A stretch of DNA of 64,000 nt from positions 1-64,000 of the forward strand of contig CADAZN010000004.1 of assembly GCA_902792435.1 (NCBI GenBank), in the 5' to 3' direction. The notes beneath the pieces were generated by a model. That model ran no database searches. It was not told the origin of the DNA and was given only the letters and a program-made list of their open reading frames with translations. The stretch's first letter is position 1. Each line of letters opens with the position of its first letter. The stretch is from an uncultured Bacteroidales bacterium (lineage in GTDB: Bacteria; Bacteroidota; Bacteroidia; Bacteroidales; Muribaculaceae). The position numbers and the translations under genes are program-made. Shown here piece by piece: positions 25,329-29,671 of the stretch.

Positions 25329-26498
25329 TCACTTATTCCCCTTCGCCCTGTTATGCGTCTTGCACAGCATCTGGCAGTTCTTGATGGTGGTGTCACCACC
25401 TTTGCTCCATGCCGTAACATGGTCGGCATCCATCTCGTTGAGTTTCCATATTCGGTCACGGTTGTTGTCGTGACCAATAGCGCAGTAAGGGCAGTTCGAC
25501 AAGCCTTTCTTCTTCGCCTTAATGGTCTGTTGCTCATACACCTTGCGCATCGTAGACTTGTCAAACAATCGCACATTAAGCAGTTTATGGTCAACGCATC
25601 CTCCTAGCACATATTCAAATATGCCACGGTGGTTGGTCACAAAGTCATCGCTCATCAGCTCACGCACCTTTGCCGACAGTTTAGTGTGGTCAAAGGCCAT
25701 ATTGTGGAATCGCTCATATAGCTCGCCCCAATTCAAGCCGCACATCTCGGGATATACGTCATCAAATTTCGAGTCCACCCAGTCTATAACTGTGTTGAAA
25801 TAGGTCTTTATCTCGTTGATGTTAGTGTCACGGCGGTGCTGGCTCATGTAGCTGTCCACCTTGCCTTTGCTCACCCATTCTAGGGCTGTGGCAAGATAAT
25901 CCTGACGCTTGGCAACACCTTTGATATATGACTTCCATTTCTGGATATTGGCATTTTGCGAATTGCTGAATTCTGCCTTGCACAATGTCACAAAGGGCCC
26001 ACTATACACCGAGTTCAACTCCTCTTGCCTGTTAAGCGCAATGCCGGCTGTATTGATAATCTTGAACCACTCTTTCAACTCTTCCTCGGCATTGTCGCCT
26101 TCTCCTTCGCATATGTATACAAGCAGCTCGGTGTTCAGTATCTTCTCTTGCTTCTCTTTGTTTAATCCGTCAAAATTCTGCTCCAGGCCGTTAATCTTAA
26201 CAGCAAACTTATTCTTGACAAACCTGCCAAGCGACGTGATACGTTGCTGGCCATCAAGCACTTCTAGCTTGCCATCTTCCATCTTATTGAAATATATCAA
26301 CCCCAACGGATAACCCTTAAGCACCGACTCAATAACGGCGACATCACGTTTGCCGTCAGCATATATGTAGTTGCGCTGATACTCGGGCTGAATTGTCAAC
26401 TTACCAGCAAGACCATACAATCCTTTGCCCTCAAGTTCGTTATACTCAAATCCGTCACAAATCTCTTCTACGGTATATTTCTCTAATGTTGTCTTCAT
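25329..26498 (-). CDS. DUF262 and HNH endonuclease domain protein
   Basis: A 389-residue protein. The N-terminal DUF262 domain has IQPEYQRNYIY and the DGQQR motif (about residues 90-94), the nucleotide-binding/hydrolysing signature of GmrS-like and related nucleases. The C-terminal HNH domain has CPYCAIG, then MDADHVTAWSKGG and NCQMLCKTHN, i.e. the metal-binding and catalytic residues are intact. DUF262-HNH proteins act as restriction or anti-phage nucleases. It starts 4 bp after the methylase stop, so the two form one operon and probably one restriction-modification-like unit. Confidence 0.85.
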   Translation of the reverse strand: MKTTLEKYTVEEICDGFEYNELEGKGLYGLAGKLTIQPEYQRNYIYADGKRDVAVIESVLKGYPLGLIYFNKMEDGKLEVLDGQQRITSLGRFVKNKFAVKINGLEQNFDGLNKEKQEKILNTELLVYICEGEGDNAEEELKEWFKIINTAGIALNRQEELNSVYSGPFVTLCKAEFSNSQNANIQKWKSYIKGVAKRQDYLATALEWVSKGKVDSYMSQHRRDTNINEIKTYFNTVIDWVDSKFDDVYPEMCGLNWGELYERFHNMAFDHTKLSAKVRELMSDDFVTNHRGIFEYVLGGCVDHKLLNVRLFDKSTMRKVYEQQTIKAKKKGLSNCPYCAIGHDNNRDRIWKLNEMDADHVTAWSKGGDTTIKNCQMLCKTHNRAKGNK

Positions 26499-26502
26499 TT
26501 CT

Positions 26503-27579
26503 TCACTGCTTTTTGCGAATTAATATTCTTCTATAAGGTAATTTAGGCTTCCCTTCAATCAAATAATATAGATCTCCATCTCTAAGTCCTTTATTTTGAA
26601 CCTTTAGCTCACGAGGAAATGGTTTAAGGCCAAGTTCAATGCCATAGTCGCCATGAGGATGTCCTAGAATTTCAAATTGCTCGGGACAATACTTGTCTAA
26701 GAAAGAAATAGGGACACCCATTGCTCCGTAAAAATCTGATGGTATTGCATCAGTATAAGGCACTTCAATAGCATCAAAATTCTCATAATGAATATATTCT
26801 TGACCTCGTATCTCTTTATGTTTGCTATGCTTAATATTATCCGCCATTGTCATTAATTGTAATGGCTGATGACGTCGGCCATGGTCTAAATTAGTGTACC
26901 AACATGTATTTCCCATTTTCATGAAACCTCCTTCTGGTTTAATATATTCTTTAGAGCCACTAGTCACACCTAGCCATACAATATTATTTTTGATTAGTGG
27001 AAACACCTCTTTATATGAAATTGCATTCATATTCCCAATAATAATAAATTTCTTATCGGCTTCTACTAACCAACCAATAAACTCACGAAACAGCGAAAAT
27101 GGTGGATTTGTCACAATAATATCTGCCTCATCACGCAAGGCTTTTATCTCCTCACTACGAAAGTCTCCATCTCCCTCAAGGTACTGCCATTCAAGGTCAT
27201 CAATATTGATGCGATTATCACCAGTGATGTCACGCTCCAAGATAAAAATCTTACCATTAGTCTTTGATTTATCCGGGTTGTAATATGGCTGAACAGTCTC
27301 AAAAAGTGTGGGTTGATAGGGAATCTTGTACTTTTTGCTCTCGGGGGCATAACTAGTGGATATCAGCTTTTTCAAACCAAGCAATTCAAAATTCTGGGCA
27401 AAGAACTTGGTAAAGTTGCTCCACTCTGGGTCATCACATGGCAGCAGCACCGTCTTGCCACGAAACACATTTTTGTCGTAGTCAAGATAAGCGTTTATTT
27501 CCTTTTGGATGTCGGCATACTGCGTGTAGAACTCGTCATTCTTTGCAGTCTTGGCATTCGATAAATTCTGATTCGCCAT
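26503..27579 (-). CDS. EcoRI-type adenine-specific DNA methyltransferase
   Basis: A 358-residue protein beginning NQNLSNAKTAKNDEFYTQY. It has the amino-methylase catalytic motif NPPF (in DIIVTNPPFSLFREFI) and a fold like the M.EcoRI family. It would methylate N6 of adenine, protecting host DNA from the partner nuclease. The ATG at 27579 is preferred to an in-frame ATG 42 bp upstream because it begins the conserved region; the upstream part lies inside a hairpin. Its leader is long and highly structured. Confidence 0.85.
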   Translation of the reverse strand: MANQNLSNAKTAKNDEFYTQYADIQKEINAYLDYDKNVFRGKTVLLPCDDPEWSNFTKFFAQNFELLGLKKLISTSYAPESKKYKIPYQPTLFETVQPYYNPDKSKTNGKIFILERDITGDNRINIDDLEWQYLEGDGDFRSEEIKALRDEADIIVTNPPFSLFREFIGWLVEADKKFIIIGNMNAISYKEVFPLIKNNIVWLGVTSGSKEYIKPEGGFMKMGNTCWYTNLDHGRRHQPLQLMTMADNIKHSKHKEIRGQEYIHYENFDAIEVPYTDAIPSDFYGAMGVPISFLDKYCPEQFEILGHPHGDYGIELGLKPFPRELKVQNKGLRDGDLYYLIEGKPKLPYRRILIRKKQ

Positions 27580-27582
27580 AAT

Positions 27583-27620
27583 TGATTGATAGTTATGATA
27601 TCGCATCCAACTATCAATCA
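27583..27620 (-). promoter_or_regulatory. 12-bp inverted repeat abutting the methylase start codon
   Basis: TGATTGATAGTT (27583-27594) and its exact complement AACTATCAATCA (27609-27620) flank 14 nt. The hairpin ends only 3 nt before the ATG, so in mRNA it would cover the ribosome landing site. As DNA it could be an operator for autoregulation. Confidence 0.6.
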
Positions 27621-27653
27621 CGCCGAGACGGAAAAGGCGCGATACACCTTATC

Positions 27654-27824
27654 CGTTCAGCAAGAGGTAGCGTCGCATGGCACCTCTGTCCCGTAATAAG
27701 AATGCATCACGCCAAGCGTGAGCATTGCTATATTCACGAGACAGTAAGCCCTATACGAACTTACCGCACTATTATTATCGTGCTTGTTATGCCTTTAAAA
27801 GTTTGCGACGCTTTTGGCTGAACG
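27654..27824 (-). ncRNA. Candidate structured, pseudoknotted leader RNA
   Basis: Read on the minus strand, an 8-bp helix (27824-27817 with 27661-27654) closes the element. Inside it, an 8-bp helix (27812-27805 with 27676-27669) pairs into the loop of a 6-bp hairpin (27687-27682 with 27668-27663), forming a pseudoknot. Between them are three hairpins: 27783-27780/27769-27766, 27764-27760/27748-27744 and a long one with outer helix 27743-27736/27694-27687 and inner stem with CACGC/GCGTG. The outer helix of the last contains a G-U pair only on the minus strand, supporting this orientation. It lies between a promoter and the methylase gene. I do not recognise it as a known riboswitch, tmRNA or 6S RNA. 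Confidence 0.5.
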
Positions 27825-27905
27825 CGAAATAATAGCGAATGCTTATGTTTTTAATATGTCGATTGTGAGAAAAATGCCAACTCCTTGGCTCCCACAACTC
27901 AATCG

Positions 27906-27935
27906 CAAAATTAGTTAATTTATCTCACAAAACAA
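27906..27935 (-). promoter_or_regulatory. Promoter of the methylase-nuclease operon
   Basis: On the minus strand, TTG (27935-27933) and TAATTTTG (27913-27906) are 19 bp apart. Transcription would start near 27899, giving a leader of about 320 nt before the methylase ATG. A further imperfect hairpin (GATTG/CAATC, 27861-27904) spans the start point. Confidence 0.55.
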
Positions 27936-28002: not shown

Positions 28003-28202
28003 TGTTGTCAATGTATTGCGAGCCATTGGCTCGTACAAAAAAGAAAGAGGGTGTGCCAGAATTTTGAAACGCCCTCTCTCCGTCAAACCCACGTTCGGCG
28101 TTGTCCTGTATTGCAAGTTGCAACTTGCACCCATTTTACACCACTTCACGTTGCTATTTTCCAGCGTGGGTGTTGTTCATGTATTGCAAGGCAAGCGCCT
28201 TG
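28003..28202. repeat. Three repeats of a 20-bp sequence each followed by a different palindrome
   Basis: GTTGTcmATGTATTGCrAG occurs at 28004, 28100 and 28172. Each copy runs into a self-complementary segment whose bases differ but whose pairing is kept: CGAGCC/GGCTCG (28019-28033), CAAGTTG/CAACTTG (28114-28127) and CAAGGC/GCCTTG (28187-28202). An extra 8-bp hairpin lies at 28046-28077. The element is upstream of the ATPase gene. Confidence 0.65.
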
Positions 28203-28327: not shown

Positions 28328-29671
28328 ATGGAAACAACAACCATTACCGAAGAATTCATCAGTCGCATGGACGACGAACTGCGATATAACTCCAACCTCT
28401 ACCAAAAAGACGGCGAACCTTTTGGCTCCCAAGCACTTTCCTCTATGGCAGGAGGTTCCTTCCCTGCTGTAGACCTTTGGCACGGACTCTGGTACCAAGG
28501 TGAAATGGCGTGCCTTTTCGGCGAGCCCAACGTCGGCAAGACAATTCTCGCCATGCAAATTGCCAACGAACTAAACAAACGAGGTCTCAAGACACTCTAC
28601 TTCGACTTCGAGAACGCTGCCCATCAGTTCAAGTCAAGATACAAGACCGACAAGTTCAACTACAGCACTGGCGACGGAGAATTTATCGTCAAGCCACTAA
28701 ACCCCAACTATTCCACTGCACCGCTCGACAGCCGCAGCATCCTCGACTACATTAAGAAGGACTTCGTCACCGAACGCGCACCCGTCATCATCATCGACGA
28801 CATCACTCACCTCATCGGCTCGGGCGACCAGGCCGACGTGCGATATGTCCTCAACACTCTGCGGAGCTGGTCGCAGCACTTCCTTGTTTCCATCCTTGTT
28901 CTGGCACATTCCAAGCGACGCAAACCCACTTCGCTCACTACCATCGACTCGCTCGCAGGCTCCTTCGAGTATTCCTACGCCTTCGACTCCATCTTCTCAC
29001 TCACACGTGCCAATTACTACAACGCCAAGCAAAACAACATCACACATTATATTAAACACCACAAGAACCGCATGGGCCCCGTCACCTACCACGAGTTCAA
29101 CGTCATCACTGCACAGTTCGGACGCGACGAGAACAATGGCTTCCTGCAGTTCAACAACCTCTATACAGGTGGCAACGAGCGCCAACTACTACGAGATAAC
29201 GGCTATAACACTCCCGAACAAATCACTCAAGCCATCATCGAATACAAGAAACTCTTCTTAACAACTAGAGAAATCGCCAACCTCGTCGGCTGCTCACAAT
29301 CCCACGTCTCAAAAACCCTCACCAAGCACTACACCACCTCCCCCTCTAAGCAAAATGGAGCAGAAAGCAGCTCCCCCTCTTGTCTAGACGAGGCAAGTAG
29401 CAGCTCCCCCTCTAAAATAGAGGGGGTTGGGGGGAGTATGAAAAAGGAACCTCAAGGCAGTTCCCCCTCTAAGAGGAGTATGCCTAATTGTGCATTGAGC
29501 ATTATGCATTGTGCATTCCCCCAAAACCCTATGCCAAAAATAAAACTCGAACCCGACCTCACACCCATCTACGATGCCTCACGATACCTCATCGATCCCT
29601 ATGGGCGCAGGATAACCATCGAAGAATACAACGAGTATTACAGCGACGAATCTCAAGATGAAGCACCTTAG
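28328..29671 (+). CDS. RecA-like (AAA_25/RepA-type) ATPase with repeat-expanded C-terminus
   Basis: A 447-residue protein. Walker A is GEPNVGKT (about residue 62) and Walker B is VIIIDDITHL (about 155), in the hexameric RepA/DnaB-like ATPase family often found on mobile elements. After the ATPase core is an HTH-like segment (LTTREIANLVGCSQSHVSKTL). Residues about 340-400 are low complexity and derive from dispersed repeats: several TCCCCCTCT units, a long CCCCCTCT/AGAGGGGG palindrome at 29403-29436 and a TGCATTATGCATTGTGCATT segment at 29490-29517. The frame survives these insertions and a conserved end follows. Its role (replication, mobilisation or defence) is unknown. Confidence 0.75.
   Translation: METTTITEEFISRMDDELRYNSNLYQKDGEPFGSQALSSMAGGSFPAVDLWHGLWYQGEMACLFGEPNVGKTILAMQIANELNKRGLKTLYFDFENAAHQFKSRYKTDKFNYSTGDGEFIVKPLNPNYSTAPLDSRSILDYIKKDFVTERAPVIIIDDITHLIGSGDQADVRYVLNTLRSWSQHFLVSILVLAHSKRRKPTSLTTIDSLAGSFEYSYAFDSIFSLTRANYYNAKQNNITHYIKHHKNRMGPVTYHEFNVITAQFGRDENNGFLQFNNLYTGGNERQLLRDNGYNTPEQITQAIIEYKKLFLTTREIANLVGCSQSHVSKTLTKHYTTSPSKQNGAESSSPSCLDEASSSSPSKIEGVGGSMKKEPQGSSPSKRSMPNCALSIMHCAFPQNPMPKIKLEPDLTPIYDASRYLIDPYGRRITIEEYNEYYSDESQDEAP

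Follow-up and report, generated by a model that had tools for sequence, protein, structure and literature searches.

What keeps restriction and other defence genes silent or poised, or switches them on, has long been asked, and the control described so far is exerted mostly by proteins and antisense RNA. A kissing core, exclusive pairings (2:3 versus 1:2 plus 3:4) and a start-codon hairpin are features known from kissing-loop riboswitches and strand-exchange attenuators. In plasmid copy-control RNAs with incompatibility loops, a fast-changing, self-complementary recognition segment sits within a constant fold. Control of the restriction systems EcoRI and Eco29kI by antisense RNA is reported in PMC3874152. 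PMC12373285 describes the 5′ UTR of abiD1 as controlling expression of a defence gene, with a phage protein activating translation there.

The window, meaning the whole 64-kb stretch of DNA analysed here, contains a minus-strand leader of ~320 nt that is flanked by a divergent ATPase gene on one side and an EcoRI-type methylase gene on the other. There is almost no doubt that this leader represents a real, large and apparently undescribed family of structured RNAs, in which types A and B are distinguished below. A preliminary description had known of no named RNA class with this arrangement. A covariance-model search of Rfam 15 (4227 models) at the gathering score bore this out: neither the leader nor ten related loci with type-B and divergent leaders gave a match, the whole window gave two tRNAs only, and at E up to 10 the leader gave only two chance-level lncRNA rows. 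No such leader was found in searches of open-licence papers or in PMC8040213, PMC2864571, PMC12373285 and PMC3874152.

Locus and predicted fold of the leader

The first gene behind the leader encodes an EcoRI-type adenine methyltransferase (26503–27579, minus strand; PF13651, E 7e-118), and the second a GmrSD_N plus HNH restriction endonuclease (25329–26498, minus strand; PF03235, PF01844; PADLOC REase_II). The methylase frame was called mechanically from a GTG at 27621, at the edge of the start hairpin; the relatives and the start hairpin indicate the ATG at 27579 as the start.

The consensus promoter proposed earlier just upstream of the leader did not hold up, as sigma-70-like sites occurred in the region at chance level (2 found, 1.3 expected), and a sigma-70 promoter was dropped. 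The likelier promoter is the -7 box TAATTTTG at 27906–27913 (minus strand), an instance of TAnnTTTG, which we take to be the Bacteroidetes-type promoter motif. Of the 141 leaders whose upstream sequence is long enough, 100 have such a box within 130 nt upstream, at a median of 71 nt before the RNA; mononucleotide shuffles gave 8.9. The leader transcript would probably start a few nucleotides downstream of 27913–27906. A terminator-like hairpin at 27889–27876 (GCCAAGGAGTTGGC then ATTTTTCTCA; scan: 1 found, 0.3 expected), located before the conserved RNA, falls just after this presumed transcription start. Between the leader promoter and the divergent ATPase gene, positions 28003–28193 contain TGTATTGCAAG/TGTATTGCGAG in short direct repeats resembling palindromic units. 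Stretches of the CCCCCTCT type were also seen by eye to be repeated at 29330–29470 within the C-terminal part of the ATPase frame, where the repeat seems embedded in the coding region.

The region 27850–27570 had a minimum free energy of -111.9 kcal/mol, compared with -73 ± 5.0 kcal/mol for 200 dinucleotide shuffles (z -7.7), none of which was as good. The helices of the preliminary description were all recovered on the minus strand. An outer helix, Pc, joins 27817–27824 (5′ strand) to 27654–27661 (3′ strand). An inner kissing or pseudoknot helix, Kd, joins 27805–27812 (5′ strand) to 27669–27676 (3′ strand), the latter being presented in the loop of hairpin Pf (AGAGGU/ACCUCU, 27663–27687; arms 27687–27682/27668–27663). 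The three local hairpins, 27783–27780/27769–27766, 27764–27757/27751–27744 and 27726–27716/27712–27701, were present as well, together with the 12-bp hairpin at the start codon. This start hairpin, Ps (27583–27620; arms 27620–27609/27594–27583), coincides with inverted repeat I1, ends 3 nt before the ATG at 27579 and has counterparts among the hairpins of relatives.

Four further strands on the same minus strand are referred to by number. Strand 1 (AGCAUUCGCUAUUAUUUCG, 27825–27843) is the conserved 5′ strand, largely invariant in 42 leaders; its partners are the 5′ arm of hairpin P3 (pairing Pa) and the P2 loop in type A (pairing Pb). Strand 2, or X, is the P3 5′ arm (27716–27726), and strand 3, or X′, is the P3 3′ arm (27701–27713), which pairs with X or with X2. 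Strand 4, X2 (GUAUCGCGCC, 27636–27645), is complementary to X′ and lies within hairpin P4 (27631–27653), which is followed or overlapped by a U-rich tract. Comparison of the leaders additionally defined helix Pe, which, like the X′-X2 pairing, is absent from the preliminary description, with its 5′ arm CUGUCUCGU at 27736–27744 and its 3′ arm ACGGGACAG at 27686–27694; Pe encloses P3 and is about 8–12 bp long. The RNA module comprises ~225 nt, or about 270 nt including the start hairpin.

Comparative evidence for the fold

Covarying base pairs were found in the homologous leaders. In a model-fitted alignment covering 56 type-A and type-B leaders (10 of 66, divergent or with inserts, were left out to fit a column limit), 88.3% of cells were paired and 38 of 39 pairs had changes on both sides, which none of 500 shuffles reached. 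When one strand was slid by 1–3 columns, only 33–49% of cells remained paired. Pairing amounted to 97.9% of cells for Pc, 98.0% for Kd, 90.9% for P3, 73.1% for P4 and, in two parts each, 77.5% and 75.0% for Pe and 90.5% and 81.9% for Pf. Homologues that break the long-range helices without compensation were looked for; instead, both-side changes occurred at 8 of 8 pairs in Pc and 8 of 8 in Kd. Among 33 distinct type-B leaders, 35 of 47 pairs had both-side changes (0 of 500 shuffles as high), and the count of pair types was less clear (18 of 500 as high). Paired cells in this set reached 98.1% for Pc, 99.2% for Kd, 94.2% for Pe, 95.2% for P3, 93.1% for P4 and 90.2% for Pf; model-fitted alignments favour the helices built into their model, namely Pc, Kd, Pe, P3 and P4, and the counts for X′-X2, Pa (88.9% in the same rows) and Pf are not built in, because these pairings are absent from the alignment-making models.

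A partner-swap test compared the duplex energy of the true partner with those of partners exchanged among leaders, excluding from the type-B set L159–L161 (individual leaders carry L numbers) and, for the type-B start hairpin, also L124, L130, L133 and L135. No permutation out of 2000 was as good for Pc, Kd, Pe, P3, X′-X2, Pa or P4, in type A as in type B. Six of seven unrelated-strand controls were not significant, and the remaining one, pairing the 5′ end with the start-hairpin 3′ arm in type B, was marginal (75/2000). The z values are upper bounds because swapping ignores relatedness; they were -3.5 (B) and -4.4 (A) for Pa, -5.4 for Pb (A), -6.1 for Pf (A) and -8.6 for P3 (A). A further hairpin, Ph, was supported in type B (z -6.8) and marginal in type A (64/2000); the Kd 5′ strand lies within its loop in type B, so Kd would there be a kissing helix. 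A tree-based covariation test on a rough first alignment was weak, with the best pair, 27805–27676, at E 0.05, the second at 0.5, and this one pair only below E 0.1. A chance fold or plain DNA palindromes were ruled out by the shuffle z of -7.7, the covariation and the swap tests.

Distribution of the leader family

BLAST with the leader found matches in 12 of 393 Bacteroidales genomes including its own, the other 11 matching the 5′ part only. Covariance models reached further: R1, built from 20 leaders, matched 27 of the 393 genomes at E 0.001, own included, five of them with short, weak rows only. Among the loci of the best 80 relatives of the methylase, R1 matched 42 at E ≤0.001, and three more between 0.001 and 0.02. 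The enzyme does not need the leader, since 38 of these 80 best loci were without an R1 match at E ≤0.001, two of their contigs beginning inside the gene. The type-B model, R2, matched 6 of 14, 8 of 71 and 15 of 18 genomes in three families, and R1 matched 35 of 149 in a fourth, all four families having been chosen for having hits. In 345 genomes spread across the phylum, matches were confined to the own genome and a single weak row. The phage, plasmid and viral collections gave no match with the queries tried.

In total, 144 leaders were collected from 73 genomes with one to six copies each, 40 genomes having two to six; this set omits the five weak R1 rows of the 393-genome search and the weak rows of G399 and G672, and keeps weak rows (E up to 3e-8) of the 149-genome R1 search. 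The contig of L090, labelled Verrucomicrobia, showed the same arrangement by eye, and no model matched it. The contig of L031 carries a second full leader (L031:7383-7624), 3.5 kb downstream of the first; no frame of at least 60 aa was seen to begin shortly after it, and it is possibly the remnant of a leader that lost its gene.

Genes behind the leader

A frame of at least 45 aa on the leader strand, the only strand considered, begins within 160 nt behind 140 of the 144 leaders. First genes were sorted by sequence prefix, with one or two representatives of most groups scanned. EcoRI-type methylases, recognized by sequence motif, directly follow 69 leaders, the distance from the RNA end to the ATG of the longest frame ranging from -1 to 46 nt (median 31). 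Type III Mod-like methylases follow 6 leaders, MmeI-type IIG enzymes 4, and other restriction or PADLOC-type proteins 12. The last group includes a Tsp45I-type nuclease, at whose locus the restriction gene comes first, D12, Eco57I-type and N6_Mtase/Methylase_S enzymes, a helicase-HNH protein, DrmD of DISARM, PLD-Snf2 and FRG/PDC-S15. Surface-related enzymes follow 20 leaders (5 acyltransferase 3, 4 glycosyltransferase 2, 4 GDSL lipase, 3 sulfatase, 2 GtrA and 2 DUF2334). The other first genes encode 11 small HTH-like proteins (a call by eye; two scanned without a Pfam match), 9 small ATPases, 3 an unnamed protein, 1 SPFH and 5 others, and 4 leaders had no frame or met a contig end.

The leader had been proposed to time methylase expression. 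The structured RNA with its start-codon hairpin stands; a special link to methylase timing is not supported. Methylase timing is too narrow a description because the leader also precedes other restriction, defence-like and cell-surface genes.

Two groups of downstream proteins were observed in passing. The proteins behind L168, L191 and L198 start with M(L/I)YENIREESLKLKVAADWF; that of L198, the one scanned, matched nothing in Pfam at E 0.001 or in PADLOC at E 1e-10, and they possibly represent an undescribed restriction or defence protein. Small P-loop proteins with LIVLYGPENSGKTTTLK or similar motifs stand behind divergent leaders of one family (L233, L226, L227, L232, L267, L268, L270, L271 and L221), and the one scanned, from L233, gave only a sub-threshold ATPase_2 match.

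Exclusive pairings, U-tract and start hairpin

Within the 33 type-B leaders, X′ pairs either with its own P3 5′ arm (95.2% of cells) or with X2 in P4 (100% over two pairs and 98.7% over seven), and six of these nine X′-X2 pairs have double changes. The X′-X2 swap gave z -6.4 (B) and -7.3 (A), and the mean cognate duplex was -17.6 kcal/mol, versus -14.5 kcal/mol for P3. In type B, a mid strand also competes for the Pc 3′ strand (Pi, 89.5% paired). A U-tract (six or more T within 8 nt, close to the RNA 3′ end) was present in 137 of the 144 leaders versus 15.7% in shuffles. A strong hairpin within the 60 nt before the ATG was found in 115 of 140 leaders, versus 22 with one shuffle each, and ended a median of 2 nt ahead of the ATG; this count was relied on instead of the start-hairpin swap test (z -13.7, -10.0, -9.0), which is biased because the arms were chosen as the best hairpin of each sequence. 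Taken together, the exclusive pairings, the U-tract and the start hairpin appear to form the anatomy of an attenuator or riboswitch-like leader.

Several other pairings were considered. Pj, in which sequence 3′ of the U-tract folds back onto the core and which therefore needs read-through, had a swap z of -4.5 in type B and was weak in type A (24/2000); placed on alignment columns, it was paired in only 30% of cells. Three candidates were rejected: Pq (the 5′ strand with a start-hairpin arm) is conserved without cognate preference (type B, 1121/2000 as good); Pk (the 5′ end with the start-hairpin loop) was weak in type A (9/2000) and absent in type B (478/2000); and X2 with a third X′-like copy before the start hairpin pairs well in the window, with no cognate preference (A 2070/5000, B 4731/5000).

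The U-tract also bears on an alternative in which most transcripts terminate at P4 and are released as a trans-acting RNA of ~250–300 nt, like type III toxin–antitoxin (TA) and AbiF antitoxins, read-through making the protein. The order of promoter, structured RNA, hairpin with U-tract and toxic gene does resemble AbiF/RCd22 and type III TA as described in PMC12373285. The window leader, though, has no tandem repeats, and no Abi_2 or ToxN match was found in a Pfam scan of 30 first-gene proteins. The proteins behind the leaders (methylases, restriction enzymes, glycosyltransferases, acyltransferases, sulfatases) are unrelated, and it is therefore unlikely that one RNA fold serves all of them as a protein-specific antitoxin. 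A released antitoxin is improbable, if less so than the other alternatives.

A metabolite riboswitch, for instance for SAM, which the methylases consume, would account for the compact pseudoknotted core, the kissing helix and a 3′ part like an expression platform. It is nevertheless quite unlikely, given that no Rfam riboswitch matched, SAM-family covariance models included, and that no metabolite is obviously common to surface enzymes, helicases and methylases. No ligand suggests itself.

Exchange between leaders and genes

In two species of one genus, a locus lies beside the same gene, carboxylesterase-like by eye, a position that in one of the species is pieced together from two contig ends. 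The promoter region was identical at 119 of 119 aligned bases, and the RNA at 95 of 96 positions in its 5′ part, 29 of 35 inside Pe and 61 of 66 in its 3′ part. One species has a sulfatase behind the leader and the other an EcoRI-type operon, which is what a cis module would predict. Conversely, methylases that are 94–96% identical (window/L014, L050/L052) have leaders only 66–76% identical. Leader and gene thus appear to be exchangeable.

Both observations would also be explained by a DNA-level element, a site of recombination or cassette exchange with hairpins that function as DNA, which would account for the shuffling and for the changes in Pe; many contigs of methylase relatives, moreover, end close to the RNA by eye. 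Against this, G-U pairs are frequent in P3, X′-X2 and Pf of type-B leaders and favour RNA on this strand; the pseudoknots and the upstream promoter box also speak against it. No recombinase was detected among the 30 first-gene proteins scanned with Pfam, and the absence of matches in the phage, plasmid and viral collections for the queries tried also counts against it. We regard such a DNA element as having little chance of being correct. Most probably the leader acts in cis, gating defence and surface operons.

A hypervariable helix within the constant fold

Automatic picking, in which some picks were wrong, gave 101 distinct Pe core 8-mers among 115 RNAs of the genome search. Pe arms exchanged among leaders paired about as well as unrelated strands (-4.1 kcal/mol in type B and -5.6 in type A), versus -13.3 and -14.3 kcal/mol for the true partners. 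Pe was then compared by gapped alignment, in which unrelated arms are still expected to agree at about half, and with picks that were partly wrong or in different registers (e.g. L028/L078, L244/L246, L220/L265). Over 26 leader pairs with at least 95% identity outside Pe, mean identity fell from 0.97 outside to 0.88 between the arms and 0.81 within Pe itself; at least 80% of Pe is shared in 15 of the 26 pairs, with four RNAs mis-picked. A stricter pick was used for 13 pairs whose genes are at least 93% identical (one more had no Pe pick, and three match a sequence with its own duplicate). These gave 0.98 for the genes and 0.86 for the upstream DNA, and pooled values of 0.94 outside, 0.91 between the arms and 0.74 in Pe, which differs in 7 and is the same in 6.

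Single pairs illustrate the change. L132 and L136 agree at 0.968 in the gene and 112/121 upstream positions, and at 10/22 in Pe; L205 and L133 at 0.981, 115/120 and 10/23, respectively. L015 and L019 agree at 181/184 positions outside and 42/42 between the arms, and at 15/22 in Pe, where both arms changed together. L028 and L078 have nearly identical RNA and agree at 146/150 upstream positions, with a different Pe. Pe is thus the fastest-changing part of the RNA, also where the genes behind two leaders are nearly identical, and its two strands change together. The cause could be selection for difference, or segments imported from other leaders. A match of Pe to the downstream methylase was ruled out, since methylases 94–96% identical carry different Pe. 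Copying from nearby DNA was likewise rejected, as no consistent site was found (25 overlapping hits against an expectation of 14).

The guide RNA of an RNA-guided enzyme, with Pe as its guide, would likewise show a single variable segment amid more constant sequence. We consider this reading hardly credible, given that the two Pe strands are equally variable and pair with each other, that Pe has no consistent nearby match, that the Pfam scan of 30 first-gene proteins contained no TnpB, IscB or reverse transcriptase, and that PADLOC gave only weak Cas3 rows, to one helicase behind a leader.

Non-cognate Pe duplexes of -7 kcal/mol or lower were rarer within genomes (6 of 156) than between them (7.8% of 3949; one-sided Fisher p 0.039 with non-independent rows), which hints weakly at insulation. 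The Pe 5′ arms are G-poor (12%). In one genome, L155 and L156 have different backbones and, by eye, nearly the same Pe; both precede the same EcoRI-type methylase start, and each contig stops some 160 bp after the RNA. Pe might be a private self-recognition helix of each leader copy that insulates similar leaders from each other or escapes phage RNAs invading Pe, a speculative reading to which we give a minor chance. If it were true, most defence or surface operons would have their own RNA key, and Pe would be a hypervariable identity tag within a regulatory RNA; in the insulation form, a released leader would possibly act in trans only on its own kind, like plasmid incompatibility RNAs. We know of no precedent for a hypervariable yet self-complementary helix in a regulatory leader.

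Discussion

The reading that we moderately favour is that these large pseudoknotted leaders form a new RNA family that would gate in cis the operon behind each of them. Transcription would begin from the TAnnTTTG promoter ~65 nt upstream of the RNA, which would fold into a core of outer helix Pc, kissing helix Kd and helix Pe around hairpin P3. A gate formed by the four-strand switch is plausible, with the balance somewhat against it. In the OFF state, strand 2 would pair with strand 3 as P3, leaving P4 and the U-tract free and terminator-like; in the ON state, strand 1 would pair with strand 2 and X′ with X2, so that P4 is invaded and read-through follows. Termination at P4 is doubtful, because P4 is GC-poor, its U-run in the window is short (UUUU) and it was not called by a terminator scan; Pj, moreover, would need read-through. 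From the sequences, we infer that the pairings interchange, which of the states is ON, and that termination or initiation is controlled. As a second gate, the start hairpin may cover the landing site of the ribosome; its effect is a guess because Bacteroidetes, to our knowledge, do not rely on Shine-Dalgarno pairing. The signal, we guess, might be phage infection or stress, acting via a host or phage factor.

If this model of gating in cis is right, a common RNA layer would lie over phage defence in Bacteroidales, major gut bacteria, spanning restriction, type III, DISARM-like and surface-modification genes. Pe makes RNA self-recognition, or an arms race at the RNA level, testable.

The arrangement shares with the AbiF RNA motif/RCd22 and type III TA RNAs, as PMC12373285 describes them, a structured RNA and terminator between a promoter and a phage-defence gene, co-transcribed with it. 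It differs from them in lacking tandem repeats, in its length of ~225 nt, in its kissing or pseudoknot core, in the unrelated downstream proteins and in the phylum. The 5′ UTR of the Lactococcus gene abiD1 is likewise the leader of a defence gene; it has an activating phage protein, whereas no such factor is known for the present leader, and the two are likened by description and not by homology. EcoRI and Eco29kI also represent control of type II restriction–modification at the RNA level, but by antisense transcripts, in contrast to the sense-strand structured leader found here. With kissing-loop riboswitches and strand-exchange attenuators, the leader shares the kissing core, the exclusive pairings and the start hairpin, and it departs from them in its hypervariable helix and in having neither an Rfam match nor an evident common target metabolite. 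The hypervariable helix resembles the recognition segment of plasmid copy-control RNAs, here placed in chromosomal leaders of defence genes and with a putative action in trans.
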